Source: Cymodocea nodosa
Taxonomy: Eukaryota > Streptophyta > Magnoliopsida > Alismatales > Cymodoceaceae
Assembly (NCBI GenBank): GCA_036874045.1
Contig: CM072343.1
Span: forward strand, 13,908,001 to 13,972,000
Reading direction: 5' to 3'
Length of the DNA: 64,000 nucleotides
The notes under the pieces were generated by a model. That model was not told the DNA's origin. It saw nothing but the letters and a program-made list of their open reading frames with translations, and made no database searches. The translations under genes were made by a program, and so were the position numbers. Shown one piece after another: positions 21,340-64,000 of this stretch; positions within the stretch are counted from its first letter, which is position 1, and each line of letters begins with the position of its first letter.

Positions 21340-23338
21340 TGTTAACTTCTGTTTTTACTTAGTTAATTTATCTTTATGCCTATTCTTTTTTTAGAAGAAA
21401 ACAAACAACCTTTCACAAAAATTAGATATTAATTCCAATTTGTATTTTAACTGCAAGTGCACAGTGTCTATTGTATTAGTGTGCAAGTACAAGTCGATCC
21501 CACAAGGAATTGCTTAAGAATTGAGAATTGTTCCATTTTTAACACTCAAATTTATATATTCAATAAGCTCTCCGTTGAGTTACAGTTATCTCAACGGACA
21601 AAATTCGTTTAGTTATGGCTAACTCAACAGACTAACCTCGTGGACTTAAGTTAACTCCATGAGCCTGCATTCCAATTTAATACTGCTATTTACAAAGGAA
21701 TTCAGCCAACCATTGGGCGGTTCCACAGATTGTAAATAACATCAATTAAGCTCTTTAATGTTAGTAAACAATGGATTTATCATTCAGCAATACTAACATT
21801 CAGATAATTCAAACAGTAACCATTAAAATCTTTAAGTCTTTTGAACGAACCAATTTCAGTAAACTGTAAAACTAAAACAAATATAAAATAGTCACAACAC
21901 GGACAAAGATAACATTAATCATAATACAACACTCAAATACAAAATACAAACACAGATAAGTTGTTTTTGGTATTTTTGTTTTAATATGAACATGGAAATG
22001 GGCGAAAGGTGAAATGTAAAGTAATCTCAGTCGATAGTAAATACTTCTGTCACTACATGTGACGCGATTACACCATTGAAAATTAAACCACTTACAACTC
22101 TGTCTCCTCTTCCTATAGAATCGCGAGTCCAGAATTGCAAGATGATCTCCTCTTCAGCATATAGGCATCAACCCGAAACCAAGGCTAGAAGCTTTACGAT
22201 CTCTTGAAATATGAGTCGGCGCTTGGTGAAAATGGCTTCCCTTCCCGCGACGCGATCACTCCTCATAGTGGTTGTCAGGCACTGTGTTTGGCTCGGAATC
22301 GACCCGACATCAGGAAAGTATCCTCACAGACCTCCGATGGTTGGTGATAATGTGGTGGTGGTGATAATGGTTGGTGTGGTACTTCAGAGAATTATCGACA
22401 CTGTCTGTAGAAAACTCGATGCTCCTCCTCTGTACACACTGGCCATACCCATCCATCACACACACTTTACTTCTTTTCTTCTTTTCTTTTATATTTCTTT
22501 AGTGGTAACTACTTCTACTTGAATGGTCAGTTGAATTTCCTTCATTCATATCAACGACGATGCTTTCTTCTCCCTTCGACGAGTGAATTCTTGTGTGATT
22601 CGTGGGATTGTGTTTATTTTCCTTCCAACTGTCTTGTTTCTGCAACCACTACAGTGGCATATTAGAAAATAAATAGTTCATGGAGTTACAGATAACTCAA
22701 CGGACTTACCTCGTTGATTTAACTATAAAACACATGCATAAATTTAACTATCCGATGCTCAAGTGCATTTTGGATACTTATAAACTTAACTATCTGATGC
22801 CTAGATGCATTTCGGATACTTACAGATAACTCACCGATATATAACTTAAGTAAATCTACCAGATCTTAACACGTGTCATCAGTAGTTTAATAATAAAAGA
22901 AACATTTCGAAGAGTTACAGGTCTAACTATCCGATGCTTAGCTACATTTTGGATAGTTAGAGATAACTTACCAAAAATCCACTTAAGACATGCATTATGG
23001 TTTTGACACATGTACTTCAGGAAATAATAAACTATTCTTTTAAAACATAACTGTTCGGTAGTTTAAACATAACTATCCGATACATGTTCAGTATGTTAAA
23101 CATAACTGTCCGAAATATCAGAAAATTCGGATACTTAAGAATTTCATAGCCTACAACTTACCGATAGTTCAAAAATGTACTAAATTAACATTAATTCCCC
23201 CAAATTAAGCAGATTCTTTAATTAAAGCATATAACAGTGCAATTATGACATAATAGCTTAATTCTCATATGATAGCTAAATATTATGCAATTAACCATCA
23301 TTTAACTGTTAATAATATGCACTTTTTCATTCTAAACA
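21340..23338 (-). repeat. G-L 3' LTR (about 2.0 kb)
   Basis: Minus-strand start TGTTTAGAATG next to tract GTATGGGGGA (23341-23350); end CAGAAGTTAACA at 21340. The TGTT/AACA ends are inverted. U3 holds repeated TAACTATCCGAT-type and CTCAACGGA motifs and GACACGTGT. TATAAAAG lies at 22486-22493. A GC-richer block follows (22100-22480). The end contains the Athila-like TGTACTTGCAC and TGTGCACTTGCAG blocks (about 21450-21510). The assigned ends come from pattern and partner copies. Confidence 0.7.
22486..22493 (-). promoter_or_regulatory. TATA box of G LTR
   Basis: TATAAAAG on the minus strand, followed by a purine-rich leader and the GC-richer block. This agrees with the orientation given by the purine tract. 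Confidence 0.55.
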
Positions 23339-23340
23339 CT

Positions 23341-23350
23341 TCCCCCATAC
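23341..23350 (-). promoter_or_regulatory. G-L polypurine tract
   Basis: GTATGGGGGA preceded by AGGGACTAGCAAAATTTAG, the usual Athila-type approach to the 3' LTR; repeated exactly at 50921-50930 in G-R. A second tract-like GAGGGGGAGG lies at 24699-24708 (52229-52237 in G-R). Confidence 0.75.
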
Positions 23351-25159
23351 CTAAATTTTGCTAGTCCCTTAGCAAACTAAGATCTAATTAATTAGTCTTT
23401 CTAAAAGTGCTAGAATTAATTCTTCTCCCTTTTTTTTCTTCTATTCAGCATAAAAACTAGTATTATCATATAGATATTCTCTATGTTTCAGTAATATTGT
23501 TTTCTCCTCTTCAACTTGCAAATATACTTAGAATATATGCAAATTACATATAAAGTATATCATCATCACATAGGTATTAATTATATTATCGTTTGTTCTT
23601 CTTTTCATCATTTGTCATCCTGAATTTTCCAATAAGATTTCTAGAAGAAATTTCAACAACATGCGAATCAAAGTACAATCCAATTCAATATGATTAAGAC
23701 AAGTAGAATAAAGAATTGTATCTTCATTAAACAACTTCAAAAGTCTATTCTAGATTCATATTTTAGCAATTCTAGATAACAGAAAATATACTCGATTCAT
23801 AAGATATCTGTATTTCACAAAATATTTGTATGTTTTTAGAACAGTATATGTATTAAATTTTTTTTTTTTTTTTTTACTTTAAAAGTTAATTTGACAAGCT
23901 TAAATCATATAGGAGCTTTCTAATGTACCCATGTAACGAGCTTTCAGTCAAGAATCTCAGATATGATCAGGATGTTATGTTGCCAGATTTCAAGAGTCCT
24001 TTTTCAGGTCAACAATCCTTACATACCTATCTGCACAAGTACAAAAGGCTCATTATCAAACAAGTCAATAAACTCTTAAAATTTCTTTTTTCTCTTTTAT
24101 TTTTTATTTTTTTCTTTTTTCTTTCACAATACAAAAACAAAACAAAACATTAAGCACATACTGTATATGTACGTATTTCATTAATACAGATGCAATAAAA
24201 CACCAATCTCATATAGTATTCCTTCTATCATTTACTGTAAATATGAATCCATAACAATAAGCTCGTACCTTTTCTGTAGTTTAATAAGAACTACACATAA
24301 ATCATTCTACAAGTTTAATTAGTTAAATTAAATGTATCTTTAATCATATGTGTTTCATTTAATCTAGAATTCACATTTCAGCTCCTTTAGGACTTCAGAT
24401 ATTTTTTTTTTTCATTAAACATTCTGATTTCATTTTAAAATCGTGAAACTGTTAAACTCATGAAATTCAGAAAAAACATAAGATACTATATCTAGATTTG
24501 CATAAATAGTAAATTCTATAGCATCTTATATAACCTTCTAAATATAACATTCAAGCAATTACAGTTTATAAAAATTTTACAGTCTCAATTATTGGATAGT
24601 TACAGCAAGTTTATTAAAATTTTCACTTTCCACAAAACTTTGTAGTACCATTTTAATTCCTTTAATTAACAAACTTACATGGCTGTTACTTTAATTACCT
24701 CCCCCTCATACCTACATTTTGCATTGTCCTCAATGTAAAAGATTTGACAATAAATACAGTAATTGTAGTAGGCATGAATACAGTTTCGTTGATTTAGCAC
24801 CTAACTCAACAAATGAGTTTAAATTTAAATTCAGGATAAGTAATCAGTTACATACCTTGTTTCGTTTATATCTCCTTCTGCATATTCCAATTTTTGATTC
24901 TGAAAAACTTTTCATTCACAGATAAAAGCAAAATATATAACAAAATAACATTTAACAACTATTGATAAATCATTGTCATGTGTGGAACCCAAGCTCCTAT
25001 GCCTTTGGTGGCTCATAAGCAAGCTAGTTGGTTTCCCAAAATAGATACCAACAAATTGGATTGATATTTTGTTTTCTTTTTTATAAAAATAAACTAAAAC
25101 TAAATTTTTTTAAAAGTATATACAGAAAACACACAACATTAAACACACAAAATCACAGC
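23351..25159 (-). other. G-L noncoding 3' tail
   Basis: No convincing ORF. Reading leftwards: a block after the F-box stop with TTGGTTTCCC and CCTATGCCTTTGGTGG (24990-25035), also in G-R; motif copies CGTTGATTTAG and CTAACTCAAC near 24787-24810; a purine tract at 24699-24708; then about 1 kb homologous to the S1 post-pol tail. T-rich runs near 23859 and 24085 are low complexity. Confidence 0.7.
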
Positions 25160-26296
25160 TTAAGAACATGATTGAAAAGTAGAAACAAATGGAATAAACG
25201 TGTCAGTCCAAGCAAACTTTTTAGGCATAGTTTTTCTTGCTATTAATTCTGTTTTAATGCAGTTCTTGTTCCTTCTTAATTTGTAAACGTGTAATATATT
25301 ATAAATTCCAAATACAAGTGTATTACCATTAATGATATGAAATGCAGAAATGGATCCTTTTTGGTTCCAAGGTAATGTAGCAATTTCTATTTCTACATCT
25401 ATTTCAATATATTCCTCTTCCCACTTCCATTCATTTATGTCTTTCATAATCCATATTTGAAATTTCATCAATTCATCCCACCATCTTATCAGACATAAAG
25501 TAGGATCATCATATTCATTATACCACATTCCTATTTGAATTTTATCGAATTCTGTAGATGGTGGTTTAGCTATATCACTCGGTATAGGTAATATTTCTAT
25601 AAAATCATCATAACTGTCTATCCTCACTATGTATAAATCAGATCCAAATGCTATTGATATATCTGTGACTAGATATACATATCCATCAAGTATGACATGC
25701 ATGCTGTTAATTAATGATTTCTGTCCTAGATATATCATAATATTTTCATTCCAAGATCTATTCAAAAAATTATACACACTTAAGCGTAAATCTTCACCCC
25801 AATTTCCTGTAGGTCTCCAATAATATAATTTTTCAAGAATTGTAGAATTTTTATCAGAAAATATTAAAGCCGACCCACAATTTACAGTTGGTACTTCATA
25901 TCTATTAGGTCTTCCTATATACCATTCTTCTCTTGTTATAGGATTTCTTATCAAAATATCAGGTAATAGACTTGCATACATTGGTCTCGTCCTGTATATG
26001 ATTAATCCTTCATCTATCCCCATAATATGATCTATTCTTTCTAATGTATTGGGTGGAATTCGAGTAGTTTCTTCCATAGGTAGATTTTCATGGTTAATTG
26101 AACTACGATTAAATGACCTTCTTATGAATCCATCTCTAATCTTAGTCATTTTTGCAGCTTGTAGTCCCTAAAAATATTTTTCTTCAATACAGTCTTTAAT
26201 TTCCTTTGATACACAACACAGCCTGCACAGATCTTTAGCTGACAAGTTACTCAGTACTTCCCTTAGTGCATCCAACGGTAATTGCATCAATTCCAT
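25160..26296 (-). pseudogene. F-box protein gene carried by G-L
   Basis: The frame starts MELMQLPLDALREVLSNLSA: an N-terminal F-box (about residues 4-45, with the LP, LREVLSNLSAKDLCRLCCVSK pattern spread over it). A TAG at 26168-26170 (G-R reads through here) is followed by 329 open codons. The C-terminal region has repeated Trp/Tyr-rich strands, as in plant F-box-associated beta-propeller or DUF295-like domains. F-box proteins join SCF ubiquitin ligases through SKP1, with the C-terminal domain choosing the substrate. No intron is visible, as expected after retrotransposon capture. It lies between gag and the 3' tail and has its own upstream motif cluster. The same gene in the same place in G-R shows it travels with the family. 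Substrate unknown. Confidence 0.75.
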
Positions 26297-26472: not shown

Positions 26473-27816
26473 TCATTCAGCTACCCTCCTAGAAGAGGTA
26501 TCAATTTCATTAACAGTTCTATTGATAGGGTTAGGTATTGCTTGCATTGGCAATCCTTCAGTAGGTCTAACTTCCATTGATTCCTTTTGTCTAAGTGGTA
26601 TATTTCTATTCTGATTTTGAATTACAGCATTTCCAAATACAAAATCTAGACGATTGTTTAATTGTTGGATTATCTTTTCTAATTTCTCTATTCTAGATCC
26701 TTGTTGTAGTAATGCTTTATAACTTATATTCTTCTCATTTACATTTTCTCCTCCTTGGAAATTGTTGTTTCTCCAAGATAAATTCGGGTGATTTCTCCAA
26801 TTAGGATTATGAGAATTTCCAAAGTTATCTTTCTAATTTCTAGCATAAATAATATCTAAATCATTAATGTTTGCATTCTTTTCTACTAGTTTTTGATTTA
26901 ATGATAACTCTTCTATTTTCTTTATTAATTCAGTTAATTTCACTTCAAGCATAGTACTTGAATCTATTTCATGCATTCCTCTTGGCAATATTCTTTTATC
27001 TACAATAGCTTCAACCGAGTTTTCCCACTGTGTAGTTCTTTTTGCAAAGTTTTCTAAATATGCCCATGCTTCTTCACTACATAGTTTCAAAAATCCATTT
27101 TGACAAGTAGATTCTAATAAAGATTTCATTGAAACATCTATGCCTTCATAAATTATACCTATTAATTGTGCTTTACTCATTGCATGATGTGGACATTGAG
27201 TCAGTAAATCTTTAAATCTTTCAAAGTATTTCTAGAATGATTCACCCTATTTTTGACTACACATTAATATTTCTTTTTTCTTTTTAATCGTTTGATGTGT
27301 TGGATAATATTTTTCCAAAAAAACAAAGTAAAATTCAGTCCATGCAGAAATTGAATCAGGCGATAGAGTATATAACCATCTCTTAGCTGTGTCTTTTAAA
27401 GCAAAAGGGATATATCTAAGTTTAATAACATCTATACTCATGTTTGGCATTTTCATCATTTGACAAACTTCATTAAATTCTCTAAGGAAATAATAGGCAT
27501 CCTCTCTTTCTAATCCATGAAAATGTGGCAATTGACTAATATAATTAGATTTCAGTTCAAACCTATCTCCCTCAAAGTTTGGCAATCGAATACATGAAGG
27601 TTCATCAACTAATTCAGGATACAGAATTTCTCCTAATGGTTTTTCTACTGGAGCAGCCATCTCTACGTTCTCTTTTAAAGAAAGGTTAGCTACACCCCAA
27701 AGAATTTCGTTAAAGTCCAATTTAGAAAATGTTTCAATGTGCCTCTATGTTGAATATTCCTAGGTAGGTGTTCTTACTAATCGTTTAGTGCTTAGAGAAT
27801 GAGTCCATGTGCTCAT
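26473..27816 (-). pseudogene. gag: G-L gag core, located downstream of pol
   Basis: A 447-codon frame starting MSTWTHS and ending in TGA at 26473-26475, broken by several TAG stops. The core (about residues 60-200) has SCIRLPNFEGDRFELK, the FHGLEREDAYYFLREFNEVC block, PFALKDTAKRWLYTL and FLEKYYP, diagnostic of Athila-type retrotransposon gag. The NPNWRNHPNLSWRNNN block lies after residue 330. No CCHC knuckle follows. Gag normally precedes pol; here it is the third gene, in both G copies. Confidence 0.85.
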
Positions 27817-28760
27817 AAATAAATAGCAGAAGATTAATTACATACTAGTCTGAAGCTTTCCATTCAATAAATATTTGTTGACAGATGAAGTCGAATCAGC
27901 TGCTTCTCCTTCCAGTTCCTCCAACGCTTTTCTCCTTTCTTTTAAAAGTGCTGGTAACTCGTAAATAACATTTTGTTCTATATATATAATGCACATCCAT
28001 AAAGTGAATAAATCTCATTGCAAGAATGTGTCTTGCAACGTGCATCGTGGTTCCTATTTTCATAGGTACGTGTACCACTATTAATTTCAAATTTTGATAA
28101 CCGCTAAGCCGACGAAGTTTCGTTCGTGGTTAAAAGAATAACCGTTCTGTTTAATCACGAACTAACCTCGTTGAGTTATAGATAACTCAATAGAATAAAG
28201 TCAGTTACTGTTGCTAACTCCACGAACTAACTTCGTTGAGTTATAGATAACTCAACGGAGTGACCTTATATTATATTATTGACCTCGTGGAGTTAAATTT
28301 AACTCAACGAACTTACTTCGTTGAGTTAACACTTAGCAACCTCTAAGTTTACTCCTCGTAAGTACCTCTCTACTTTATTCTGCATTCTGTTAACTAAAAT
28401 AAAGTTAAATCTATGTCATTAATGCATCATTCTAATCAAAATTCGTTTAAATTTAAACATTATACAAATATTTAACTTGCAGGTCAATTTATGTTATGCA
28501 GAATTTACATTTTACCTTGCAACATGCAGAAATTTTTCAAGCATCTATCCTGTCATTCAGCAAATTGTAAATCTGTTAAACATTCATTCATAATGTTCCA
28601 CAAATTATATAACATTCAATAAATTCTATTCATTTCACATTCAAAACACGTATGAAAAGTACATCTGAAAAATTTATATTCATTAATACGAATCAATTTA
28701 CATTACAAGTACATCATACAATTTTCATACAATTCTATACAAGTGGACGAACAATACAAT
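27817..28760 (-). promoter_or_regulatory. ORF2-gag spacer: motif array and TATA-like box
   Basis: At least six CGTTGAGTTA/TAACTCAACG-type copies at 28155-28330, then TTATATATATAGAAC on the minus strand (27978-27992), then a 160 bp leader to the gag ATG. The equivalent in G-R has ATTATAAATATAGAAC at about 56848. It looks like an internal promoter for gag. It could also be an old LTR, but I see no purine tract or primer site beside it. Confidence 0.5.
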
Positions 28761-30998
28761 TTAGTCTTTATTCCTTAGTTCATCTACTTCTTTCTGGAGT
28801 TTTTCTAATTGAACTTCTAATTGATTAATTCTCTCTACAGCTCCTGTAATTCCTCTAGAAGGTACAACTATCTCTGTAGCTACAAAATTTTTGTATTCTT
28901 TCACTGAAATGGTTATTGATTTGATCCTTTTTGATGCCCATTTCGTGAAATCAATACAATCTACCATCAATATAGGTATGAAATCTCCATAAAACAATTT
29001 CTTCTTTACTGTTCTCAGCTTGGAGATAAAAACTACAAACCAATTTATTGGAATTCTATTGACAACTGCAAATGTGGCCCATTTGACAAATTGACTCAAT
29101 TCTATGTCATGGCCTTGTCGTTGATAGACATTCTTAATTAAAATGTTAGCTATCATGTGTGCTTTATCATTTAAATGCTTCAGTCTATTTAATAAAGGCA
29201 CACCAAGATTGATAGCCAAACTGTCCTTGATTTCTTGTTCTGTCCATTCAACAGTAGTTGTGCTTTCCAAAATTTCTTGTCCTTCATTCTTTAATCCAAA
29301 AATGTTGTGGAGAAGCTTTGGTGTTATCTATACATTAGCTTCCTCCACGTTAGAAATTAATTTTCCTTCTTCTCTCAAATTTACATAAAAATAGGGCACT
29401 AGATTCTCATATACTGCATGCCCTCTTTCTTGAGAAATAAAATTCAGTAGACCTTGGAACTCAAATAAATCTTTGATTTCTTGCATTCCGTCCCAATTTA
29501 CTGGTTTACTATAAAAAATATCATAACCCCTAATCTCTTGATATTTATTATAAGCTTCCTGACTCCAAAAATGTACTTCATTCAGAACTATTGTTTCAAT
29601 CGGGTTAGGAATTTGACTTTGTTGTTCCAAAGGGGTTTATTCTTGATCTTCGTCCTCCATATGCTGCATTTGAACATGTTCTGTAGATTCCTGAATTTTT
29701 GCTTCTACTTCTATCTGTGGTGGTGAGTTGGCAGAACTCTCCACTCTGTCTTGAATTCTTTCCATAAATTGCTAAAGAGTTTCTTGCTCTTCAATGGAAT
29801 CTGCAAAGTCATTTTTGTCCAAATGGCTTCGTTCAACTTCTTCTTCATTTTTTGTTCTTTCTTCTTCCTCCTGACTACCAATCTACTCTGTAACTGTTCT
29901 TTCTAATTCTGTGGCAAATTGGGATGGAGTCACGGGCAATTCAGTTTCTACCCTAATTTCTGTTTCTTCTTCTTGTATAGGCTGCAGACTAATTTCAGCC
30001 TATTTTTCTTCTTCTCTTTGCTCTTGCTACTGCTGCTCCTACTCCTCATCAGAATTGGATAGCAGGTTTATAAAAATTGGCTCCACAAGCCCTGTTGACA
30101 TTGGTACCTCAGATTTAATCTCTTTTTGATACTCAAGCACTATCTCTTTTCCTTTCCTTCGTGTGATTAATTGTGCTTGGTCTTCCTCTTCTTCATCTAA
30201 GATTAAATCTAAAAATAAAGGCTCTACACGCCTTTGAGCCACAGGTACTAGCTCTTCCTATTTAATTTTTCCAATAATTGCTGGTCTCGAAGGACCAGCT
30301 TCAGCTTCTCTTGCAGCCCTTGATTTAGCTGTTGTCTGATACTGTTCAACCTTAATTTTGTACTAGGCCCTCAACTTTTCTTCTGCCCTTCTTCTTTTAA
30401 TGCCATCATATAAAATATGTGCCTTAGCTATAGCTATTCCTTCTTCATCACCTTGGTCTCTTGCTATTTTGACCAAGCTAGTAAACTCTTTCTCTTCTTC
30501 ATCAATTATCGGCCAAGCAAATGCTACTCGTGGCAATGGCTCTATTGGCTGAATTGGAGGTCCTCACTGTTGTTCCTTAGGAACAGGTCTTTCAGTAGTT
30601 GGTTCCTCCCGTTCTCCTGCTTGTTGCTACTGCCATATTTCCCAACTTCCACGACCAGCAATGCACCTTTTGAACCATAATTTGGCCTTACGCTGGATTA
30701 GCTCTAAGGCTACTTCATTGTTCGACCTGATTTTTCTTTCTTTACTAACTGCAATTTCTATTGCTACTCTGATTCGTGTCTCCATTATCTAGGGTATTTG
30801 TATACCACAATCTACTAACACTCTTCTTAATCTAAAAAGTTCAGATTCTAACTTCTGTAACTCTTTTTCTCTTGTCGTATTCTGAATTTTTTGCCGCGTG
30901 TGCCATTCCTCTGATTCCTTTAGAAACTCTAATGTGTCAACTGCATCTTCCTAGAACTTAGGTGTCATCTTCCTCATCGTGGACTTACACAACAGCAT
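28761..30998 (-). pseudogene. G-L ORF2, homologous to Sirevirus S1 ORF2
   Basis: About 745 codons with numerous TAG stops, most at Gln or Trp positions. The N-terminus is helical and basic (EEWHTRQKI, then NNEVALELIQRK). It is followed by acidic segments, including the repeated FLDLI/FINLLS-like units, and then the conserved domain (30240-28870 region): NEVHFWSQEAYNKYQEIRG, DLFEFQGLLNF, FYVNLREEGK, FGLKNEG, AHMIANILIKN, INWFVVFISKL, KKLFYGD. The C-terminus is a coiled coil (INQLEVQLEKLQKEVDELR). The domain is collinear with S1 ORF2 although the two elements belong to different superfamilies. Function unknown; nuclear or DNA-binding roles are speculation. Confidence 0.8.
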
Positions 30999-31537
30999 GG
31001 AATCGCTCTGATCTCTATTGTTCTAAATTCTAACTGGTTTGACGGATAATGCCCCCAAAACCTTAGGTTTTATTTTAAATAAGCCCTAAGTTTAGGTAGG
31101 TAATCGGGTCATTTCCCGAACCAACTATTGCTCTCTCATCCGCAGTCTTAGCCACAGTACTCCGTTGAGTTAAAGTTTACTCAACGAAATAAGCTCGTTG
31201 ACTAACTCAAGACTCAATGGAGTAAGCTCGTTGAGTTAAGCGTAACTCAACGAACTTCCCGTACAAACAGATATATATAATAATAATAATACTTAAGATA
31301 ATAGTTTTTCAGTTTTTACCGGTTTAACCGATACTATGTTTCGGTCAAACCTAATTTTTTTCCGATTGAACCAATACTCTGTTTCGGTAAAACCAAAATT
31401 TTTTTACTAAAAATTTAATATAGATTTTTTTATGTTCCAGTCATACCGATGGATATGGTCGGTTAAACTGTAACGCTTTTTATATTAATTTTTTATTTTT
31501 TATTTTTTTATATCTACATAAAAAAATTGATTTCTTA
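30999..31537 (-). promoter_or_regulatory. pol-ORF2 spacer with two kinds of motif array
   Basis: A cluster of five CGTTGAGTTA/TAACTCAACG-type copies at 31160-31257. Nearer to pol is a second array of GGTTNAACC-like palindromes (GGTTTAACC, GGTCAAACC, GGTTAAAC) at 31319-31475. A TATA-like TTATTTAAAATAA lies about 70 bp upstream of the ORF2 ATG. G-R repeats the arrangement at 59821-60500. Confidence 0.55.
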
Positions 31538-33884
31538 CTAAGTAAAGCTCGAGTAGTCCTCTACTCTAACTTCTTCTATAATTCTAAAGGAGTTTTTTGG
31601 TGTTTTCAGAATAGGTCTAAGTCTTTGTCCATTTACTTTAAATATATTCTGATTTTTAGGATTTTCTATTTCAATAGCTCCGCAAGGATAAATATTTCGA
31701 ACTATGTAAGGTCCTGCCCATCTAGATCTTAATTTTCCTGGATGGTTATGGAGTCTAGCCATATAAAGATATACTTCTTGTCCTATTTCAAAGCTTTTTG
31801 GAATAATTTTCCTATTATGCCAGAATTTCATTTTCTCTTTTTCTCTTATAGTGTTCGGATAAGCTTCATTTCTAAATTCTTCTAATTCAATTAATTGTAT
31901 TTTTCTATTTTCAGCAGCTTGATCTAAATTAGTGTTCAGAGTTTTTAATGCCCAATAAGCTTTATATTCTATTTCAGCTAGTAAATGACAACTTTTTCCA
32001 TATACTAGCCTAAAAGGTGACATACCTAAGCTTGTCTTATAAGTAGTTCTATAAGCCCAAAGTGCATCTATCAATCTATTAGCCTAATCTGTTCTAGTAG
32101 GATTTACTACTTTTTCTAAGATTAACTTAATTTGTTTGTTAGCACTTTCTACTTGTCCACTTGTTTGCGGATGATATGATGTTGCAATTTTGTGGTTTAC
32201 TCCATATTTCTTCATTAAGGCTTCAAAACTTCTATTACAGAAATGAGTTCCTCTATCACTGATAATAGCTTTAGGTATTCCAAATTTGGCAAATATATTG
32301 GTTCTTATAAATTGTATTACCACTTTGTTGTCATTAGTTTTTGTAGGAATAGCTTCTATCCATTTAGATACATAATCCACCCCTAACAATATGTAATTAA
32401 ATTGATTAGACATAGGAAATGGACCCATAAAATCTATTCCCCACACATCAAAGATTTCAACTTCAACAATAGGATTAAGAGGCATCATATTCCTCTTTGA
32501 TATTTTTCCTATTTGTTGACATCTTAAACAACTTAAGCAATATTTATGAGCATCTTTGAATAGTGTTGGCCAATAAAATCCACATTGTAGAATTTTTGCA
32601 ACAATTTTCACTGATCCAAAATGCCCTCCACAAGCTTGGTCATGACAGAAAGATAATATGCTCGGATATTTAGTTTCTAGAACACACCTCCTAAAAACCA
32701 AATTAGGACATTTCTTAAATAAGTATGGGTATTCCCAATAGTAATATTTTACTCTTGAGAAAAATAATTTCTTATCCTATCTATTCCAATCCTTAGGTGT
32801 TAAACCAGTAACTAAGTAATTAACTATGTCTGCATACCAAGGTGTTGTGTTGATGGTCATTAATTGTTCATCAGGAAAATTATCCTTAATTTCAATATTT
32901 GATTTTTCTATTTGTAATCTTGATAAATGATCTACAACTACATTCTCACAACCTTTTTTATCTTTAATTTCTAGGTCAAATTCTTGTAATAATAATATCC
33001 ATTGGATCAATCTAGGCTTAGTTTCTTTTTTTGCTATTAGATGTTTTAAAGTTGCATGATCCGTGTATACTATTACTTTAGCTCCAATCAGATATGATCT
33101 AAACTTTTCTAAGGCAAACACAACAGCTAATAATTCCTTTTCAGTAGTTGTGTAATTAACTTGAGCATCATTTAAGGTTTTGCTTGCATAATGAATCACT
33201 TTAGGAGATTTTTCTATCTTCTGTCCCAACACTTCTCCTACAGCAAAATCAGATGCATCGCACATTAATTCAAATGGATGGCTCCAATCAGGTGCTTGAA
33301 TTATAGGAGTTGAAATTAGGCTAGTTTTAAGTCTAAAAAATGCTTCCTTGCAATTTTTATCAAAGTTAAATGGAACATCTTTTAATAGATTAGTTAAAGG
33401 TCTAGCTATTTTGCTAAAGTCTTTAATAAATCTTCTATAAAAACCAGCATGTCCTAGAAATGATCTAATATCTTTTACTGATTTAGGTTCTGTAGGTTAG
33501 AAATTACTTTTATTTTAGCTTTATCTACTTCCAATCCTTTCTTAGAAACAACATGCCCTATGACTATTCCTTGTTTAACCATGAAGTGACATTTTTCCCA
33601 ATTCAAAACCAGATTTTTTTCCACACAACGCTTTAATATTAGGTCTAAATTGCTTAAACAAACTTCATATGAGTTGCCATATACAGTAAAATCATCCATA
33701 AATATTTCTAAAAAATCTTTAGTCATTCCAGTAAACATGCTTTGCATACACCTTTGAAAGGTAGCTGGTGTATTGCATAATCCAAATGGCATTCTCTTAA
33801 AAGCATAAGTTCCATTAGAACAGGTGAAAGTTGTTTTCTCTTGATCCTCTAATGCTACTGGAATTTGATTATAGCCTGAATACC
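31538..33884 (-). pseudogene. pol: G-L pol: RT (part), RNase H, integrase
   Basis: Gypsy RT with MPFGLCNTPATFQRC and FMDD, the connection region, RNase H ([25 protein letters not shown]), integrase zinc segment (HDQACGGHFGSVK, CLSCLRCQQ) and DDE core (VWGIDFMGPF, AIISDRGTHFCN, SGQVESANK). The C-terminal domain has WAGPYIVRNIYPCGAIEI and the frame ends RVEDYSSFT at TAG. Frame breaks occur at about 33480, 32770 and 32080. The RT continues for about 45 bp on the far side of S3 (35693-35651) and is then deleted. Confidence 0.92.
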
Positions 33885-35645: not shown

Positions 35646-35693
35646 ATACCCGTCTAGGAAACAAAAATATTCTTGCCCTGCTAATCTTTCCAG

Positions 35694-37490: not shown

Positions 37491-37499
37491 TGAGAAATT

Positions 37500-43120: not shown

Positions 43121-43124
43121 TATT

Positions 43125-48906: not shown

Positions 48907-48908
48907 AG

Positions 48909-50645: not shown

Positions 50646-50918
50646 TTAGCATTTAAAACATAACTGTCCGGTACATGCAATATAACTCTCCAAACTAACA
50701 GAAAATTCGGATACTAAATAATTAAAAACCAACAACTTGCCGATAGTTCAGAAATGTATTAAATTAATGCTAATTTCCTAGAATTATGTAGATTCTTTCA
50801 TCAAAGCATATAATAGTGCAATAATAACATAATGGCTAAATTTTCATATGATAAGCTAAAAATTATGTAATTAACCATCATATAATCGTTAATATTATGC
50901 ACTTTTTCATTCTAAACA
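50646..50918 (-). repeat. G-R 3' LTR start, truncated
   Basis: Begins TGTTTAGAATG beside the tract GTATGGGGGA (50921-50930) and matches 23070-23338 of G-L, with TAACTGTCCGG and TTCGGATAC motifs. Cut at the S4 junction. Confidence 0.8.
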
Positions 50919-50930
50919 CTTCCCCCATAC

Positions 50931-53279: not shown

Positions 53280-54705
53280 ATGCCTTTTATACTATATCTT
53301 CATATGCTTAATCAACGAGAACTCTATGCCTTTTATACTATATCTTCATTTCATGCATATCCTCCACATTTAATCACTACCAGTTTTCCACTTCTTCACA
53401 TCTTTTCTTTTTCCTTTAACGAAACACACACGTTCTGACCCATGTTTACATTTGAATTTTCTTTAATCATTAGTCTTGGATCTCTGAAAAATTTCCTGCA
53501 AAATAAACTTTCTCTTCCAAAATTTTTCATCAAGTGTAATAAGAAGTCGTTGCTTTAATGTTAACTAAACGAGTAACACAAGTAGACATTAACTTAACGC
53601 TTCTAACTTAATGAGTTCCTCATGTGCCATTTCACGTGACAAGTACTGTAGCTAACTTAACGAACTAAGTTCATGGTGTTACGCTAACTTAACGAACCAT
53701 CTCCGTTGTGTTACGATAACTCAACGAACCAGTAATAAACAAATGTTTTTATAATAATAATTTTACCACGTGCAAAAATAACAACTTAAGTTTTATAACG
53801 CTAACCTAACGCGTTGCCTTAGTCTTCAATATAGCAACTCAACGCGTTTAGTTATGTTAACTTAACGAGTTAAACATGTGCACCTCACATGATACAATAT
53901 AACATTTGTAACTTATAATTTCACCACGTGTACAACACTAACTTAACGAGTTTCATCTCTTCTTTTACTCACTAACTTAACGAGTTCTCACGTGACATAT
54001 TTTAACCTTTAAACCTCTAACTTAACGAGTTCTCCTGTGACCTCTATACAAATAACACTCTAACTTAACGAGTTGTCTAAACGTGCATTGTTCATGATAC
54101 AGAAGATATAACTTTAAAACATATCATGCTTTTCAATAAAAACACACGTTAACTTAACGTTTAGTTAAATGAGAAATTAATGCAATGAAATGACTAGTTA
54201 TTAACTTAGTATAATTTCAGATCCAATACAGACAAGTATTTTTTTCAATATGCTTTTTCTGTATTAATTGATGATTTTCATTTCTTTTCACAAGCAATAG
54301 TAATTGAGCAAATATGATTATTTTCATTCAGCACACATCATCAAAACAAAATACTCAACACCAAGCAATTTCAGAAAAGGAGCTACAAACGTAAGAAGTT
54401 TGGAAATAAGACAACTAGAGAAGAAGAGATACAGAAGCTAAGCAAAGACAAAGAAAGATCAAGTTTTATACAATTCAAAATTAGTTTTCAATAAGAGCTT
54501 TATTGTTATATTCGAATTGTATATCGAACATTTTTGTATCAAAACCGTGAAGAAGGGAATTGAGCTGAAAAGATATTGTAAATTCTGTTTTTAAATAAAG
54601 AATAGAATTTCATTTACGTGTGTTTTGTGCTCTTGTTTTATTTGCTAGTATTTAATTACTAAAGACACAATTTACCCCCCCTCTTGTGATACAGACGATC
54701 CTACA
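53280..54705. repeat. Two Sirevirus LTR pieces (S5 -, S6 +) in the F-box gene
   Basis: S5 is a minus-strand S-family LTR from its exact start TGTTGAG (54360) to about 53310, past its TATA box. It carries the three-unit GTTCGTTGAGTTA array. S6 (54361-54705) is the end of a different Sirevirus-type LTR on the plus strand, ending TTTACCCCCCCTCTTGTG...CCTACA. S5 inserted into S6; a later deletion removed the S5 end, the S6 start and part of the F-box gene. The joint holds a 24 bp copy of the TATA region (53280-53303 repeats 53326-53349). Confidence 0.75.
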
Positions 54706-55117
54706 CAATTGGTACTTCATATCTATTAGGCCTACCTATATTCCATTCTTCTCATGTGAGAGGATTTCTAATTAACATATCAGGTAACAGAATTGCATAC
54801 CTTGGTTTGGTTCTATATATAATTAATCTTTTATCCATCCCCATAATATGATCTATTCCTTCTAATGTATTGGGTGGAATTCTAGCAGTTTCTTCCATAT
54901 TCAGATATTCATAGCTAATTGAACTACGATTAAATGACTTCCATAAAAATCCATCTCTAATCTTAGTCATTTTTGCAGCTTGTAGTCCATGAAAATATTT
55001 TTCTCTAACATAGTCTTTAATATCCTTTGATACACAATACAATCTACACGGATCTTTAGCTAACAAGTTACTTAGTACTTCCCTTAGTGCGTCCTGCGGT
55101 AATTTCATCAATTCCAT
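54706..55117 (-). pseudogene. G-R F-box gene, N-terminal part
   Basis: Starts MELMKLPQDALREVLSNLL; the F-box continues to about residue 45 and the frame runs through the position where G-L has a TAG. It stops at TGA near 54752. The ORF could start 66 bp further upstream, but G-L supports this ATG. Together with 52701-53279 this is the same gene as in G-L. Confidence 0.8.
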
Positions 55118-55331: not shown

Positions 55332-56664
55332 TCATTCGGTTACCCTCCCAGAGGAGGTATCAATTTCATTAACAGTTCTATTAATAGGGTTAGGTACTGC
55401 TTGCATTGGCAATCCTCTAGTAGGTCTAACTTCTATTGATTCTTTCTGTCTAGGGGGTATATTTCTATTTATATTTTGATTTTGAATTGTAGCATTTCCA
55501 AATACAAAATCTAGACGATTGTTTAATTGTTGAATTATCTTTTCTAACTTCTATATTCTAGATCCTTGTTCAATTAATGCTTCGTAATTTATATTCTTAT
55601 CATTTATATTTTCTCCTACCTGGAAATTGTTGTTTCTCCAAGATAAATTCAGGTGATTTCTCCAATTAGGGTTATACGAATTTCCAAAGTTATCTTTCTG
55701 GTTTCTAGCATAAATAATATCTAAGTCATTAACATTTGCACTTTTTTCTACTAGTTCTGATTTAATGATAACTCTTCTATTTTTTTTGTTAATTCAGTTA
55801 ATTTAACTTCAAGCATAGGGCTTGAATCCCCTTAGAAATATTCTTTTATCTACAATAACTTCAGTTGTGTTCTCCCACTATGCAGTTCTTTTTGCAAAGT
55901 TTTCTAAGTATGTCTATTCTTCTTCACTACACAATTTTAAAAATATATTCTGACAATTAGATTCTAATAAAGATTTCGTTGAAACATCTATGCCTTCATA
56001 AATTATACCTATCAATTGCGCTTTACTCATTGCATGATGTGGACATTGAGTTAGTAAATCTTTAAATCTTTCAAAATATTTCCAGAATGATTCTCCCTAT
56101 TTTTGGCTACACATTAATATTTCCTTTTTCTTTTTAATCGTTTGATGTGTTAGATAATATTTTTCCAAAAAAATAGAGTCAAATTCAGTCCATGTAGAAA
56201 TTGAATCAGGCGATAGAGTATATAACCATCTCTTAACTGTCTTTTAAAGCAAAAGGGATATATCTAAGTTTAATAACATCTATACTCATGTTCGGCATTT
56301 TCATCATTTAACAAACTTCATTAAATTCTCTAAGGAAATAATAGGCATCCTCTCTTTCTAATCCATGAAAATGTGGCAATTGACTAATATAATTAGATTT
56401 CAATTCAAACCTATCTCCCTCAAAGTTTGGCAATCGAATACATGAAGGTTCATCAACTAATTCAGGATACAGAATTTCCCCTAATGGTTTCTCTACTGGA
56501 GTAGTCATATCTTCGTTCTCTTTTAAAGAAAGGTTAGCTACACCCCTGAGGATTTTGTTAAAGTCCAATTCAGAAAATTTTTTAGTACGTCTCTGTGTTG
56601 AATAATCCTGTGTAGATATTCTTACTAATCATTTAGTGCTAGGTGAATGAATCCATGTGCTCAT
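55332..56664 (-). pseudogene. gag: G-R gag core
   Basis: Same gene as in G-L, starting MSTWIHS at 56664 with the SCIRLPNFEGDRFELK and FHGLEREDAYYFLREF blocks and an NPNWRNHLNLSWRNNN block late in the protein. It has more stops and at least two small deletions (near 56245 and 55830). No CCHC knuckle. It ends at TGA 55332-55334. Confidence 0.83.
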
Positions 56665-57555
56665 AAACTCTTAACATAAAATAAGATAGCAGAAGATTAA
56701 TTACATACCAATCTAAAGCTTTATATTCAGTAAATAATTGTTGACAAATGAAGTTGAATCAACTACTTCTCCTTCCAGTTCCCCAATGAATTTTCTTTTC
56801 TCTCACAAGTGCTGGTAACTAGTAAATAACATTTTGTTCTATATTTATAATGCACGTCCATAAAGCAAATGAATCTTGTTACAAGAACGTGATTTGTAAC
56901 ATGCAGTATGGTTCCTACTTTTATGGTACGTGTGCCACTTCTAATTTCAAATTTTGGTAACCGCTAGACCCACGAAGTTTCGTTCGTGGCTAAAAGAATA
57001 ACTGTTTAACTTAATCCATGAACTAACCTCGTTGAGTTACAGATAAATCAACGGAAAAGCTTCGGTTACTACTGCTAACTCCACGAACTAACCCCGTTGA
57101 GTTAACACTTAGCAGATTTTCTAAACTTACTCCTTGTATATACTTTTCTACTCTCCTACATTTTTCCAACTTAAATAAAGTTAAATACATGTCATTAATG
57201 CAGTATTCTAATTAAAGCTCATTTAAATCTGAGCATTATATAAATTTGTAACTTGCAATTCATTTCATGTTATGTAGAATTTAAATTTTTCTTTGCAGCA
57301 TGTAGATATTTTCAAGCATTAATTAGTTACTGTGCCTTTAATCTTGTCATTTAGCAAATTTACATATCTTTTAAACAATCTTGCATTTTGTTCAAACCAT
57401 TATATAATATTCAATATAGCTCATCCATTTCATCATTCTCAAACATGAATGAAAAATACATCTGAAAAACATACATTCATTAATATGAATAGTATACATT
57501 ACAATAACTCAGATATTTTTCATACAAATGTACACAAGTAGACGAACAATACAAT
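56665..57555 (-). promoter_or_regulatory. G-R ORF2-gag spacer with TATA-like box
   Basis: TAACCTCGTTGAGTTACAG and related copies at 57025-57110, then TTATAAATATAGAAC on the minus strand (about 56838-56853), then a leader into gag. Fewer motif copies than in G-L. Confidence 0.5.
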
Positions 57556-59820
57556 TTAATCTCTTCTCCTAAGTTCATCTACTTCCTTCTAGAGTCTTTC
57601 TACTTGTTGCTCTAATAGGTTAATTCTTTCTACAACTCCTGTAACTCCTCCAGAAGGTTCAGCAATTTCTACAGCAGCATAGTTTCGGTACTCTTTTACT
57701 GAAATGGTTCTTGATCTTATCCTTTTGGATGCCCATTTCATGAAATCAATACTATCCACCATCAGTAGTGGAATCAAATCTCCATAAAATAATTTCTTCT
57801 TTACTGCTTTCAGCTTGGAGATAAATACTTTGTACCAATTAACTTGAATTTTGTTTACAACTGCATAAGTAGCCCACTTGACAAATTAACTAAGTTCAAT
57901 GTTGTGGCCTTGTCTTTGATAAACAGTTTTTACCAATATGACTGCGATCATGTGTGCCTTTCCATTTAAGTACTTCAGTCTATTCAATTATGGCACACTA
58001 GGGTCGATGGCTATGCACTATTTAATTTCCTATTCAACCCATTCCACTACAGTTGTCTCTTCCAGAATTTCAATTCCTTCATTTCTCAGTCCGAAAATAT
58101 TGTGGAGAACCTCTGGTGTTATCTATACATCAACTTTTTTCACGTTGGAAATTAATCCTCTAGTTCCTTCTCTCAAATTTGCATAAAAGCATGGCACTAA
58201 ATTCTCATATACTACATGCCTTCTCTACTGAGAAATAAACTGTAGTAGACCTTGGAACTCAAATAAATCTTTGATTTCTTGCATTCCGTCCCAATTTACT
58301 AGTCTACTATAAATGATATCATAACCCCTAATCTCTTGGTATTTGTTATAAGCTTCCTGACTCCAAAAGTATACTTCATTTAAAACTGTTGCCTCCAAAG
58401 GGTCAGGAATATGAATTTGTTGCTCTAGAGGGGTTTGTTCTTGAACTTCCTCTTCCAAATGCTGAACTTAGACTTGTTGAAAATGCTCTTCAGATTCCTG
58501 AATATTTGCTTCTGTCTATGGTGGTGAGCCAACAGAACTCTCCACTCTGTCTTGAATACTTTCCATAAATTGCTGAAGAGTTTCTTGCTCTTCAATGGAA
58601 TCTGTAGAGTCATTTCTTTCCATATATACTTGTTCAGCTTCTTGTTCATTTTCTTTTCTTTCTACTTCCTCCTGACTACCAATCTACATTGTAACTGTTC
58701 TTTCTAATTCTGTAGCAGATTGAGATGGAGTTACAAGCAAATCAACTTCTGCCCTAATTTCTGTTTCTTCTTCTTGTATAGGCGGCAGACTAGTTTCAGC
58801 CTGTTTTTCTTCTTCTCTTTGTTCTTGCTGCTGCTACTCCTGCTCCTCCTTAGAATCGGATAGCAAGTTTACAAAATTTGGCTCTGTAGGCTCTACTGAC
58901 ATTTGTATTTCAGATTTAATCTCATCATGATATTCAGACACTATTTCTTTTCCTTTCCTTTTTCTGATTAATTGTGTCTGGTCTTTCTCTTCCTCATCTG
59001 AAATTAAATCCAAAAAAATAGGCTCTGCAGGCCTTTGAGTCATAAGTACTGGCTCTTCCTATTTAACTTTTTCTATAATTACTGGTCTCGAATGGCCAGC
59101 TTCATCTCCTTTTGCAGCAGGTTTGGCAGAAGCTTCTTGATGTTGTTCCACTTTGATTTTATATTGAGCTTTCAACTTTTCTGCAACCCTCTTTTTGTAA
59201 AGTGCATCAAATACTAGGTGTGCTTTAATCACTGCCAAATCTTCTAATTCTCCTTGGTTTTTCCCAACTTGAACCAGTTCTTCAAATTCTCTTAATTCTT
59301 CTTCATTTGAAGGCCCCATAACTACCACCCTTTCTAATGGTTTAGGAAGTGGATTTGAAGGTCCAAGCTACTGTTCCTCAGGAATAGGTCTTTCAGCAAT
59401 TGGCTCCTCTTGTCCTTCAGTTGCCTTTTCTTCATTTTCTTTCCTTTCTTGCTCCCAGATCGCCCATTTAGCTCGTCTACAGATTCGTCTTTTGAACCAA
59501 AGCCGGGACTTACGTTGGATTAATTCTAGGGCAACTTCGTTGTTTGGCCTTATTTTTCTTTCCTTGCTTACAACAATTTTCGTAATAACCTTTATTCTTG
59601 TTTCCATTATTTGAGGTATTTGTATACCCAAATCTAATAAAACTCTTCTGAAGTTGAAAAGTTTAGATTCTACCTTTTGTAGTTCTTTTTCTCTTGTCGT
59701 ATTTCTGATTTTCTGCCTCGTGTGCCATTCCTCTAATTCTTTAAGAAATTCTGAAGTGTCTATTGCCTTTTCCCAGAACTCAAGTGTCATCTTCCTCATC
59801 GTGGAGTTATGCAATGACAT
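57556..59820 (-). pseudogene. G-R ORF2
   Basis: About 755 codons beginning MSLHNSTMRKM. Helical basic start, acidic middle with FLDLISDEEE and FVNLLSDSKEE units, conserved domain with NEVYFWSQEAYNKYQEIRG and DLFEFQGLLQF, and the INWF/KKLFYGD region with stops. Premature stops are mainly TAG and fall at different CAG codons from those in G-L (for example the Gln-rich run at 58827-58850 against 30026-30048). Homologous to S1 ORF2. Confidence 0.8.
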
Positions 59821-60500: not shown

Positions 60501-63500
60501 CTAAGTAAAGCTCGAGTAGTCCTCTACTCTTGCTTCTTCTATAATTCCAAAAGAACTTTTTGGTATCTTCAAAATAGGTCTAAGTCTTTGTCTATTTACT
60601 TTAAATATGTTCTGATTTTTAGGGTTTTCAATTTCGATAGCTCCATAGGGATAAATATTTCAAATTATGTAAGGTCCTGCCCATCTAGATCTTAATTTTC
60701 CTCGATGGTTATGGAGTCTAGTCATATAAAGATATACTTCTTGTCCTATTTCAAAGGTTTTTGGAATAATTTTCTTATCATGCTAGAACTTCATTTTCTC
60801 TTTTTCTCTAACAGTTTTTGAATAAGCTTCATTCCTAAATTCTTCTAATTCAATCAATTGTAATTTCCTATTTTCTGTAGCTCGATTCAAATTAGTGTTC
60901 AAAGTTTTTAATGCCCAATAAGCTTTATGTTCAATTTCAATTGGTAAATGACAACTTTTTCCATATACTAGCCTAAAAGGTGACATACCTAAGCTTGTCT
61001 TATAAGCATTTCTATATGCCCAAAGTGCATCTATCAATTTATAAGCCCAATCTGTTCTAGTAGGATTTACTACTTTTTCTAAGATTAACTTAATTTGTTT
61101 GTTTGCACTTTCTACTTGTCCACTAGTTTGTGGATGATATGATGTTGCAATTTTGTGGTTTACTCCATATTTCTTTATTAAGGCTTCAAAACTTCTATTA
61201 CAGAAATGAGTTCCTTTATCACTAATAATAGCTTTAGGTATTCCAAATCTGGCAATTATATTGGTTTTTATAAAATGTATTACCACTTTGTTGTCATTAG
61301 TTCTTGTAGGAATAGCTTCTATCCATTTAGATACATAATCCACCCCCAACATTATGTAATTAAATTGATTAGACATAGGAAATGGACCCATAAAATCTAT
61401 TCCCCACACATCAAAGATTTCAACCTCGACAATAGGATTAAGAGGCTGCCTCTTAATTGATATTCTTCCTATTTGTTGATACTTTAAACAGCTTAAGCAG
61501 TATTTATGAGCATCTTTGAATAGTGTTGGCCAATAAAATCCACATTGCAAAATTTTGGCAGCAGTTTTCCTTGAACCAAAATGCCCTCCACATGCTTGGT
61601 CATGACAGAAAGATAATATGCTTTGATATTCAGTTTCTGGAGCACACCTCCTTAAAACCAGATCAGGACATTTCTTAAATAAGTATGGGTCTTCCCAATA
61701 GTAATATTTTACTCTTGAAAAGAACAATTTCTTATCCTGTCTATTCCAATCTTTAGGTGTTAAACCAGTAACTAAGTAATTTACTATGTCTGCATACTAA
61801 GGCATTGTTTTGATGGTCATTAGTTGTTCATTAGGAAAATTATCCTTAATTTCAATATTTGATTTTTCTATTTGTAATCTTGATAAATGATCTGCTACTA
61901 CATTCTCACAACCCTTTTTATCTTTAATTTCTAGATCAAATTCTTGTAATAACAATATCCATCGGATCAATCTAGGTTTAGTCTCTTTCTTTGCTATTAG
62001 GTGTTTTAAAGCTAAATGATTCGTGTATACTATTACTTTAGCTTTAATCAGATATGATCTAAACTTCTCTAAGGCAAACACAACAGCTAACAGCTCTTTT
62101 TCAGTAGTTGTGTAATTGATTTGAGCATCATTTAAGGTTTTGCTTGCATAATGAATCATTCTTGGAGATTTTTCTATCTTCTATCCCAACACTGCTCCTA
62201 CAGCAAAATTAGATGCATCACACATTAATTCAAATGGATGGCTCCAATCAGGTGCTTGTATTATAGGAGTTGAAATTAAGCTAGTTTTAAGCTTAAAAAA
62301 TGCTTCTTTGCAATTTTTATCAAAGTTGAATGGGACATCATTTAATAGATTAGTTAAAGGTCTAGCTATTTTGCTAAAATCTTTAATAAATCTTCTATAA
62401 AATCCAGCATGTCCTAGAAATGATCTAATATCTTTTACTAATTTAGGTTCTAGTAGATTAGAAATTACTTCTATTTTAGCTTTATCTACTTCCAACCCCT
62501 TCTTTGAAACATGTCCCAAGACGATTCCTTGATTAACCATGAAGTGACATTTTTCCCAATTTAGAACCAGATTTTTTTTCACACAACGTTTTAATACTTG
62601 GTCTAAATTGTTTAAACATACTTCATATGAAGTTCCATAAACAGTAAAATCATCCATAAATATTTCTAAAAAATCTTCAGTCATTCCAATGAATATGCCC
62701 TGCATACACCTTTGAAAGGTGGCTGGTGCATTACATAATCCAAATGACATTCTCTTAAAAGCATAAGTTCCATTAGGACAGGTGAAAGTTATTTTCTCTT
62801 GATCCTCTAATGTTACTAGAACTTAGTTATATCCTGAATACCCGTCTAGGAAACAAAAATATTCTTACCCTACTAATTTCTCTAGCATTTGAACTATAAA
62901 AGGTAAGGGAAAATGATCTTTCCTAGTTACAGGATTTAGCTTTCTATAGTCTATACACACTCTCCAGCCTGATTGAATTCTAGTAGGTATCAAGTCCTGA
63001 CTTTCATTCCTAATTACTGTTAATCCTGATTTCTTGGGAATGACATGGATTGGACTAACCCATGAGCTATCAGAAATCGGATAAATTATGTCATTATCTA
63101 ACCATTTCACTATTTCCTTCCTGACTACTTCTTTAAGGTTTGGATTTAATCTCCTCTCAGGAATTCTAACTGGTTTAGCATTCTCCTCTAAATATATATA
63201 GTGACAGCATAAAGTTGCACTTAACCCTTTTATATCAATCATAGTCCATCCTATTGCTTCTTTATAAGTTTTTACTATATCTTTTAATTTAGCAATTTGA
63301 TCCTCTTTTAAATCTGAAGCAATAATGATTGGACATGTTCGTTTTTCTTCCAAAAATATATAGGTTAAATCAGGAGGTAAAGGTTTTAATTCTAACTGTT
63401 GTCCATCAAAAGCTAGAGCTCCTAATTGAACATCATTAATTTCTTCTTGATCTCCTTCTACATTTATGCTTTCACTTTCTTCTAAAATCTCAAAATTAAG

Positions 63501-64000
63501 TTGCCTATTTAATTCTTCTTGAATCACATCATCTAGCATATCTCCTTCATCCTCCAAAAGTCTGTAGTATGTAAGGACATTTCTAGCTCTTCAAACTTTT
63601 CTGGTTTAAAAGGTTTAATTAAGTATCCTCATTACCATATGCTAACTTCATAATTCCAGTTTTACAATTTATAACTGCCCTTGATGTTGCTAAAAATGGT
63701 CTTCCCAAAATTAAAGATGTATCATTATTTTTATGCTTAATTTGTTGGGAATCCAAAATTACAATATCAATAGAATAGATGAAGTTTTTGATTTTAATTA
63801 AGACATCCTCTATTTTTCCTCTAGGGTATCTTATACTTTTATCAGCTAATTGAATAACTGCCCTAGTAGGAGTTAAGCATTCCAATCCTAAGGATGCAAA
63901 TATATCACTTGGCATAACATTTATACCAGCACCTAAGTCTATTAAGGTTCTTTCTAGAATGGTATTTCCTATGGTGCATGATATAACAGAGATTTCAGGA
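60501..64000 (-). pseudogene. pol: G-R pol: protease, RT, RNase H, integrase (5' partial)
   Basis: Protease with DLGAG just inside the window edge and LILGRPFLAT (63619-64000). RT has RVCIDYRKLNPVTRKDHF, then a TAA where G-L has CAA, and FMDD at about 62650. RNase H has CDASNFAVGAVLG. Integrase has HDQACGGHFGSRK, VWGIDFMGPF, AIISDKGTHFCN and SGQVESANK; the frame ends in TAG at 60501-60503. A stop at about 60783 (TAG for TGG) cuts off the C-terminal domain. Upstream of protease nothing is visible, so a knuckle as in A1 cannot be checked. Confidence 0.92.

Follow-up and report, generated by a model that had tools for sequence, protein, structure and literature searches.

Whether a retrotransposon can keep the two halves of its gag apart, with the capsid encoded behind pol, is the question raised by a 64-kb stretch of DNA from Cymodocea nodosa (contig CM072343.1, positions 13,908,001 to 13,972,000; hereafter the window). 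In retrotransposons bounded by long terminal repeats (LTRs), the order of gag before pol is tied to the setting of the Gag to Pol ratio. This order is described as the common organisation of these elements (PMC7264820). Self-comparison of the window, together with Pfam scans of 30 reading-frame pieces, revealed that it is filled with plant-type LTR retrotransposons nested in one another. Two of these, the long minus-strand gypsy elements G-L and G-R, lie approx. 29 kb apart and align over 23.06–33.89 and 50.65–62.85 kb, with interruptions. Both read, from 5' to 3', pol, ORF2, gag, F-box gene, tail, purine tract and LTR, an order given in a preliminary description of the locus and borne out here by Pfam domains and by alignment; the stretch described there begins at base 21340, which is the 3' LTR end of G-L. 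These copies probably belong to an Athila-like Ty3/gypsy family with a split gag, in which the nucleocapsid is encoded before pol and the capsid 3' of pol and ORF2, beside an F-box gene.

Two copies with the capsid behind pol

G-L occupies 33.9–21.3 kb, and all its parts are on the minus strand. It starts with part of the reverse transcriptase (RT), followed by RNase H and integrase, as recognised by Pfam (31541..33884), a gap with palindromes (30978..31537) and ORF2 (28761..30977), an open reading frame (ORF) in the position of env that contains 13 internal stops. The gap between ORF2 and gag (27661..28760) carries the palindromes AACTCAACG...CGTTGAGTT, the sequence TATATATA at 27988 and, as judged by eye, an intron-like GTATGT...AG. 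The downstream gag (26473..27660) has a capsid domain of the family PF03732 without a CCHC knuckle and is interrupted by three TAG stops, and it is followed by the F-box gene (25160..26296), with one internal stop. Scored as translations with X in place of the stops, the gag reached 67.1 bits against PF03732 (Retrotrans_gag, cut-off 24.1 bits) and the F-box gene 40.4 bits against PF00646 (F-box, cut-off 20.5 bits), which places the latter in the F-box family; a structure prediction of the F-box protein from the single sequence (335 residues) gave no usable fold, with a mean predicted local distance difference test score of 33. Two purine tracts were located by reading, the inner PPT1 (24698..24712), approx. 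1.35 kb before the LTR, and PPT2 (23339..23351), which adjoins it. The 3' LTR itself (21340..23338) has the form TGTTTAGAATG...AACA and includes palindromes followed by TATATAAA at 21558.

The other end of G-L is damaged. Its RT is interrupted by a copia solo LTR (33885-35645) with a perfect 5-base target duplication, GGTAT; past this insertion a few RT codons can be read, and they run straight into an LTR fragment, so that the 5' internal end of G-L was lost by deletion. LTR fragments of the same family and orientation extend upstream of G-L (35650..37500, minus strand). One of them (35732-36783) matches the G-L 3' LTR at 92% identity, and another, a start part of 370 bases, at 72%; inside this fragmentary LTR the end of the G-L LTR recurs in inverted form over 285 bases (36768-37052). 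G-L is thus flanked on both sides by LTR sequence in the same orientation, but the start of a 5' LTR is missing and no target duplication can be compared.

G-R (64–50.65 kb, also on the minus strand) starts with a region coding for protease, RT, RNase H and integrase (60504..63999) that runs off the window. The protease (63999-63595) was assigned by similarity to the protease regions of the relatives G-3 and L001, which are presented in the next section, and the part from RT to integrase (63590-60504) by Pfam. Then follow ORF2 (57556..59799), again with 13 internal stops, a gap (56509..57555) with palindromes and TATAAATA at 56849, and a downstream gag (55332..56508) broken by stops and frame shifts. 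The F-box gene (52701..55117) is split by an insertion bearing a copia LTR (approx. 53282-54706), and the piece scored reached 19.0 bits, slightly under the cut-off for PF00646. The counterpart of PPT1 was read at approx. 52228-52242, and the first 266 bases of the same LTR as in G-L (50653..50918) close the element, where it is cut by a copia element. In one copy or both, every ORF of this order is interrupted by stops or frame shifts.

The front half of gag

The preliminary description had noted that the sequence before the protease is not visible; for G-R, which leaves the window, this holds, and for G-L the corresponding end is deleted rather than just unseen. Two relatives on the plus strand, G-3 and G-4, do present 5' ends. 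In a search of the window for primer sites, scored as matches out of 18 bases, G-3 showed the site TGGCGCCGTTGCCGGGGA (13189..13206, 18/18), which we take to fit plant tRNA-Asp. After a leader of 756 bases with 17-22 stops per frame, its 5' ORF (13963..15285) encodes a CCHC knuckle at residue 23, a linker with LRSGKEV and a protease that scores 17 bits in Pfam, under the 24.3-bit cut-off, and was otherwise assigned by similarity to the protease region of L001. The words LRSGK and NPGW.NHP are usual in Athila gags. A nested copia (15464-18596) precedes the RT, RNase H and integrase of G-3 (18544..20966), which is cut at approx. 20960. There the integrase is fused in the plus direction, via a short shared word, to a 300-base LTR piece of the same family (20952-21271), and this piece then meets the LTR end of G-L. 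G-4 starts with an LTR (approx. 43122-45730, limits set by eye), followed by a primer-site-like sequence (45737..45754, 14/18), a leader of 1166 bases with 24-37 stops per frame, and the start of a 5' ORF (46921..47290) that carries a CCHC knuckle at residue 19 and one internal stop and is cut by a copia element. No capsid domain was found between the primer site and the protease of G-3, nor between the primer site and the knuckle of G-4. The leaders were also considered as possible carriers of capsid remnants, and this was rejected, none being detected in their frames. The earlier claim that gag had moved downstream is accordingly narrowed to the capsid half; in these two relatives the zinc-knuckle half lies in front, before the protease in G-3 and at the opening of the 5' ORF in G-4.

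An outside reference for a normal gag came from a GTDB scan with the G-3 RT, which led to the contaminant contigs L001, L002 and L003; IMG/VR scans with a piece of the G-R RT, a piece of the G-L gag and the G-3 5' ORF returned no relative. L001 and L002, deposited as Solirubrobacter and Geminicoccus, are 99.7% identical and evidently eukaryotic DNA. The presence of the same 9-kb retrotransposon contig in two bacterial assemblies with CPCC strain names is an evident contamination of deposited genomes. L001 has the canonical arrangement, with the capsid first, in one frame of 2004 codons: Retrotrans_gag at residues 170-262, a CCHC knuckle at 363, LRSGREI at approx. 569, protease at 817 (20.6 bits, below the cut-off), RT at 1168 and integrase at 1696. 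Its RT is 64-72% identical in amino acids to those of the window over 123 columns. When the L001 capsid was compared with the six frames of the window, only the gags of G-L and G-R were matched (best E 7e-43; best elsewhere E 0.8), and the comparison of this capsid with the downstream gag gave E 4.5e-43. The linker-protease part of L001, in turn, matched only G-3 and G-R in the six frames (next E 2.3); compared with the G-3 5' ORF itself, it gave E 8e-52. The downstream gag covers L001 residues 98-364 and, weakly, 398-425, without the knuckle that starts at 363. Since knuckle, linker and protease are found in front and the capsid behind, the halves of a normal gag are complementary. Relatives of the other downstream genes were not seen in L001 and L002: the piece of ORF2 tested gave a best E of 0.33, and the F-box piece no match at E 1.

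How far the front of G-3 can be taken to represent G-L and G-R depends on their kinship. The G-3 protease is nearer to that of G-R (51.5% identity) than to that of L001 (40%), the integrase nearer to those of G-L and G-R (68-70%) than to that of L001 (61%), and in a block of 65 columns from RT to RNase H G-3 is 66-68% identical to G-L and G-R versus 60% to L001. On this evidence a front like that of G-3 is likely, though unproved, for G-L and G-R too. Several points weigh against extending it to them, and with it against a gag split within one element. In the RT, G-3 is 72-74% identical to G-L and G-R and 71.5% to L001, a small difference; in the RT-RNase H block the identity to L001 (74% for G-L, 71% for G-R) exceeds that to G-3 (68 and 66%); and the 5' ORF of G-4 matches that of G-3 only weakly (E 0.012). 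From these comparisons the kinship of G-3 to G-L and G-R is moderate. Furthermore, no copy in the window has both ends: G-3 and G-4 break off ahead of their 3' part, and G-L and G-R ahead of their 5' part.

These points leave room for a family with two gags, that is, a normal 5' gag with its capsid and an extra capsid gene downstream. The capsid of L001 is at the normal place, one short block of pol puts G-L and G-R nearer to L001 than to G-3, and the 5' ends of both copies lie outside the visible sequence. Nevertheless, at the 5' ends of G-3 and G-4 the stretch from primer site to knuckle contains no capsid, and the downstream gag has no knuckle, so that the two halves complement each other. 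We regard this possibility as unlikely, although it is the strongest of the alternatives.

The origin of the gene order

A split gag in one element could also be imitated by two elements. A gag-only, non-autonomous partner may have jumped into an autonomous Athila-like element; with the LTRs of the partner lost, the composite would then have been amplified. Partners that carry gag do exist, RLG_Quinta being described as such for RLG_Cereba in wheat (PMC11302176), and the inner purine tract after the F-box gene could be read as the trace of one. An extra purine tract has also been reported in Athila4 and Calypso, though (PMC2829016), and the boundary between ORF2 and gag contains neither an LTR nor a primer site in either copy. 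This 1-kb gap can be aligned from end to end between G-L and G-R. It showed no match of LTR length to the family LTR in either copy, only palindrome matches of up to approx. 110 bases, and no primer-site match in it exceeded 10/18, again in either copy; the best sites of the window, at 13189 and 45737, are both on the plus strand, and the next best anywhere reached 12/18. A hidden LTR or primer site between ORF2 and gag is therefore ruled out by the LTR comparison and the primer-site search, in agreement with what had been claimed from reading alone. An origin from a gag-only partner is improbable, and it would still give an element with the capsid last.

Even less probable is the caveat raised in the preliminary description, a segmental duplication, in which a gag-F-box piece was inserted once into a dead element with pol and ORF2 and the nested cluster was then copied to give G-L and G-R. 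The two copies do lie close together in one window, and four TAG stops are common to both, in gag and ORF2 (27249, 29330, 29885 and 30260 in G-L positions). However, 14 of the 16 internal stops in the gag and ORF2 of G-L are TAG, and for 15 and 17 TAGs distributed over 77 susceptible codons chance alone would give 3.3 in common (P 0.43); the shared stops are at chance level, and their use as proof of a dead common ancestor was rejected. The way in which the copies diverged also counts against this account. The ratio of nonsynonymous to synonymous change (dN/dS) between G-L and G-R is 0.16-0.33 in four pieces of pol, 0.37 in gag and 0.38 in the F-box gene, and in five pieces of ORF2 it is 0.16, 0.19, 0.27, 0.28 (with dS saturated at 1.7) and 0.81 (a single piece of 72 codons). 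In a neutral simulation that kept the observed mutation spectrum and placed the changes at random, with 1000 runs per frame, none of the runs was as constrained as observed for pol, for gag or for the last part of ORF2 (29636-28764, the only part of ORF2 simulated), and five were for the F-box gene. By contrast, six frames chosen as controls from the tail and the gap between ORF2 and gag behaved as if neutral (198 to 817 of 1000 runs), and gag read out of frame did so too (717 and 997 for the two wrong frames). Dead DNA would not diverge in this manner, and since codon-aware differences are seen in pol, ORF2, gag and F-box but not in gap and tail, the copies are not explained by one dead duplicated cluster.

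At the nucleotide level the picture is uneven. Pol (91.9% identical) and gag (91.8%) stand above the ORF2-gag gap (81.2%), whereas the ORF2 zone (77.6%) is below the gaps, its dS is raised, and the first part of the F-box gene (86.7%) is no more alike than the rest of this gene and the tail (86.8%). These last values, like the shared stops, count against the reading of a capsid-last family. The ORF2 and F-box zones are thus not better conserved than their surroundings, and only the codon tests indicate selection there. Age points in the same direction as these tests: the LTR fragment upstream of G-L is 92% identical to its 3' LTR and the ORF2-gag gaps are 81% alike, which suggests that G-L was inserted after the lineages split, that is, that the split seems older than the insertion. 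The fragment is patchy, with 370 bases at 72% and the inverted LTR end inside, and this argument is a supporting one. A chance order of the genes is excluded by the domain scores together with the selection. The codon patterns suggest that, once the copies had split, pol and gag were carried jointly by coding elements, as were, with weaker support, ORF2 and the F-box gene, and the capsid-last order looks like a family trait, neither a one-off nor a dead duplicated cluster; the earlier argument that the same order in two copies speaks against a one-off rearrangement gains support from this divergence under coding constraint.

Putative promoters and related elements

If the capsid is encoded last, the way in which it would be expressed becomes relevant. 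G-L contains 13 copies of the palindrome core CTCAACG/CGTTGAG, versus 0.35 expected: three in the LTR, four before ORF2, five before gag, one before the F-box gene, and none within the ORFs. G-R has seven cores (two before ORF2, two before gag, two before the F-box gene and one in the tail), two more in the inserted copia LTR being excluded from this count. In both copies the palindromes that precede gag are followed by a TATA-like box (27988 and 56849), as are those in the LTR (21558). CCGA/TCGG words are also raised in the G-L LTR (11 versus 3.4 expected), and before ORF2 their numbers (6 versus 1.8 and 5 versus 1.9 expected) are within the range of shuffles. Sireviruses are reported to have palindromic boxes at two places, ahead of the TATA box in the LTR and, in 77 of 79 linker copies, ahead of the env-like gene (PMC2829016). 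The main core here is not of the Sirevirus CGG-CCG type; its placement, in the LTR and before downstream genes, is as in Sireviruses. The same CTCAACG/CGTTGAG words are carried by five of the six copia LTR stretches checked in the window (9635-11384, 15467-17048, 33885-35645, 47292-48907 and 53308-54360), and the partial stretch at 18047-18596 has none.

We infer from these placements that the downstream genes may have internal promoters of their own in the style of the LTR, and this is best supported for gag. Among the points that count against such promoters, the TATA-like words before the G-L ORF2 all lie 5' of the palindromes, and the G-R ORF2 showed no TATA box in front of it, in a scan of the LTR and of the gaps before ORF2 and gag; the promoters, the intron and the function of the F-box protein are all putative, as read from the DNA. 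In the probable reading of a split gag, the 5' polyprotein retains the nucleocapsid with its zinc knuckle, then protease, RT, RNase H and integrase, on the assumption that G-L and G-R carry the G-3 type of 5' end; the capsid (Retrotrans_gag) is encoded by a gene of its own after pol and ORF2, and the F-box gene, purine tract and LTR come next. The downstream genes would be transcribed from internal promoters that copy the design of the LTR promoter, and capsid excess would come from its own messenger instead of from controlled read-through into pol. A more tentative proposal, somewhat short of an even chance, is that the family carries a separately promoted gene set, with nucleocapsid and pol first, capsid and F-box last, each behind a copy of the palindromic LTR promoter. 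Capsid excess would then be set by transcription instead of by a frameshift or read-through, and the zinc knuckle and the capsid would come together in the particle alone. The F-box protein could recruit a host ubiquitin ligase and so remove a host factor that limits the element, e.g., part of the silencing machinery; some F-box proteins of plant viruses act against silencing.

Regarding its class, the family shows the pol order of Ty3/gypsy (protease, RT, RNase H, integrase), with the last three detected by Pfam in G-R and G-3. It departs from Ty3/gypsy in that the capsid does not precede the protease, being behind integrase in G-L and G-R and absent from the front in G-3 and G-4, a comparison outside which the 5' ends of G-L and G-R lie. 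The absence of an additional RNase H and of a chromodomain are features by which Athila is recognised (PMC6317226), and neither domain was matched by Pfam in the 30 reading-frame pieces, with the lone exception of a sub-threshold RVT_3 match that overlaps the native RNase H. The Athila-like placement is based on RT identities and not on an RT tree with named Athila elements. Beyond the two domains looked for, the name Athila for this type of RT is our assumption.

With the Athila clade (Athila4, Calypso, Diaspora) the family shares the order RT-RNase H-integrase, the lack of a detected second RNase H, long LTRs, a tRNA-type primer site (here that of G-3), an ORF in the env position and an extra inner purine tract. 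Diaspora, as described, differs in having one gag-pol frame, with a CX2CX4HX4C finger in a gag that precedes the protease (PMC1142308), whereas in the present family the capsid has its own gene after ORF2, with the knuckle in front in G-3 and G-4. The machinery is thus Athila-like; the gene order and the split gag are not. Sireviruses, which are Ty1/copia elements with an env-like gene, also have palindromic boxes both within the LTR and ahead of the downstream gene (PMC2829016) and differ in superfamily and in that the downstream gene is env there and gag here. In the wheat pair RLG_Cereba and RLG_Quinta an extra supply of capsid is likewise uncoupled from pol, as reported (PMC11302176), but by two separate elements in trans, compared with one order in cis. 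Tat elements, according to one account, offer a precedent for a polyprotein domain in an ORF of its own (PMC10508981); there the domain is the additional RNase H, located upstream of gag or pol, and not a 3'-terminal capsid. In a search of open-licence PMC papers, none of the titles and abstract starts listed described gag behind pol, which is not proof of absence in print.

Another part of the window has relatives of ORF2 and the tail in a Sirevirus-like copia element on the plus strand (5.5-9.1 kb). Its env-position ORF (6818-9136) is approx. 27-38% identical in amino acids, in pieces, to ORF2 of G-L and G-R (approx. 30% for G-L), and the stretch behind its pol (5475-6344) has 75% nucleotide identity to the G-R tail and 69% to the G-L tail. 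The copia and gypsy families share these modules, namely the tail stretch and the ORF2 relatives.

Elements of this kind could be missed by surveys that expect the order GAG-PROT-RT-RH-INT. In one survey GAG was unidentified in 159 of 8453 plant Ty3/gypsy elements, which was ascribed to likely divergence and mutations (PMC6317226). If the reading of a split gag with the capsid behind pol is true, it shows that the coupling between the order of gag and the Gag to Pol ratio can be dropped, it offers a natural variant for testing the control of Gag excess, and it shows how a retroelement can adopt expression from several promoters. The F-box gene, for its part, suggests a route by which a plant retroelement may act on the protein turnover of its host.

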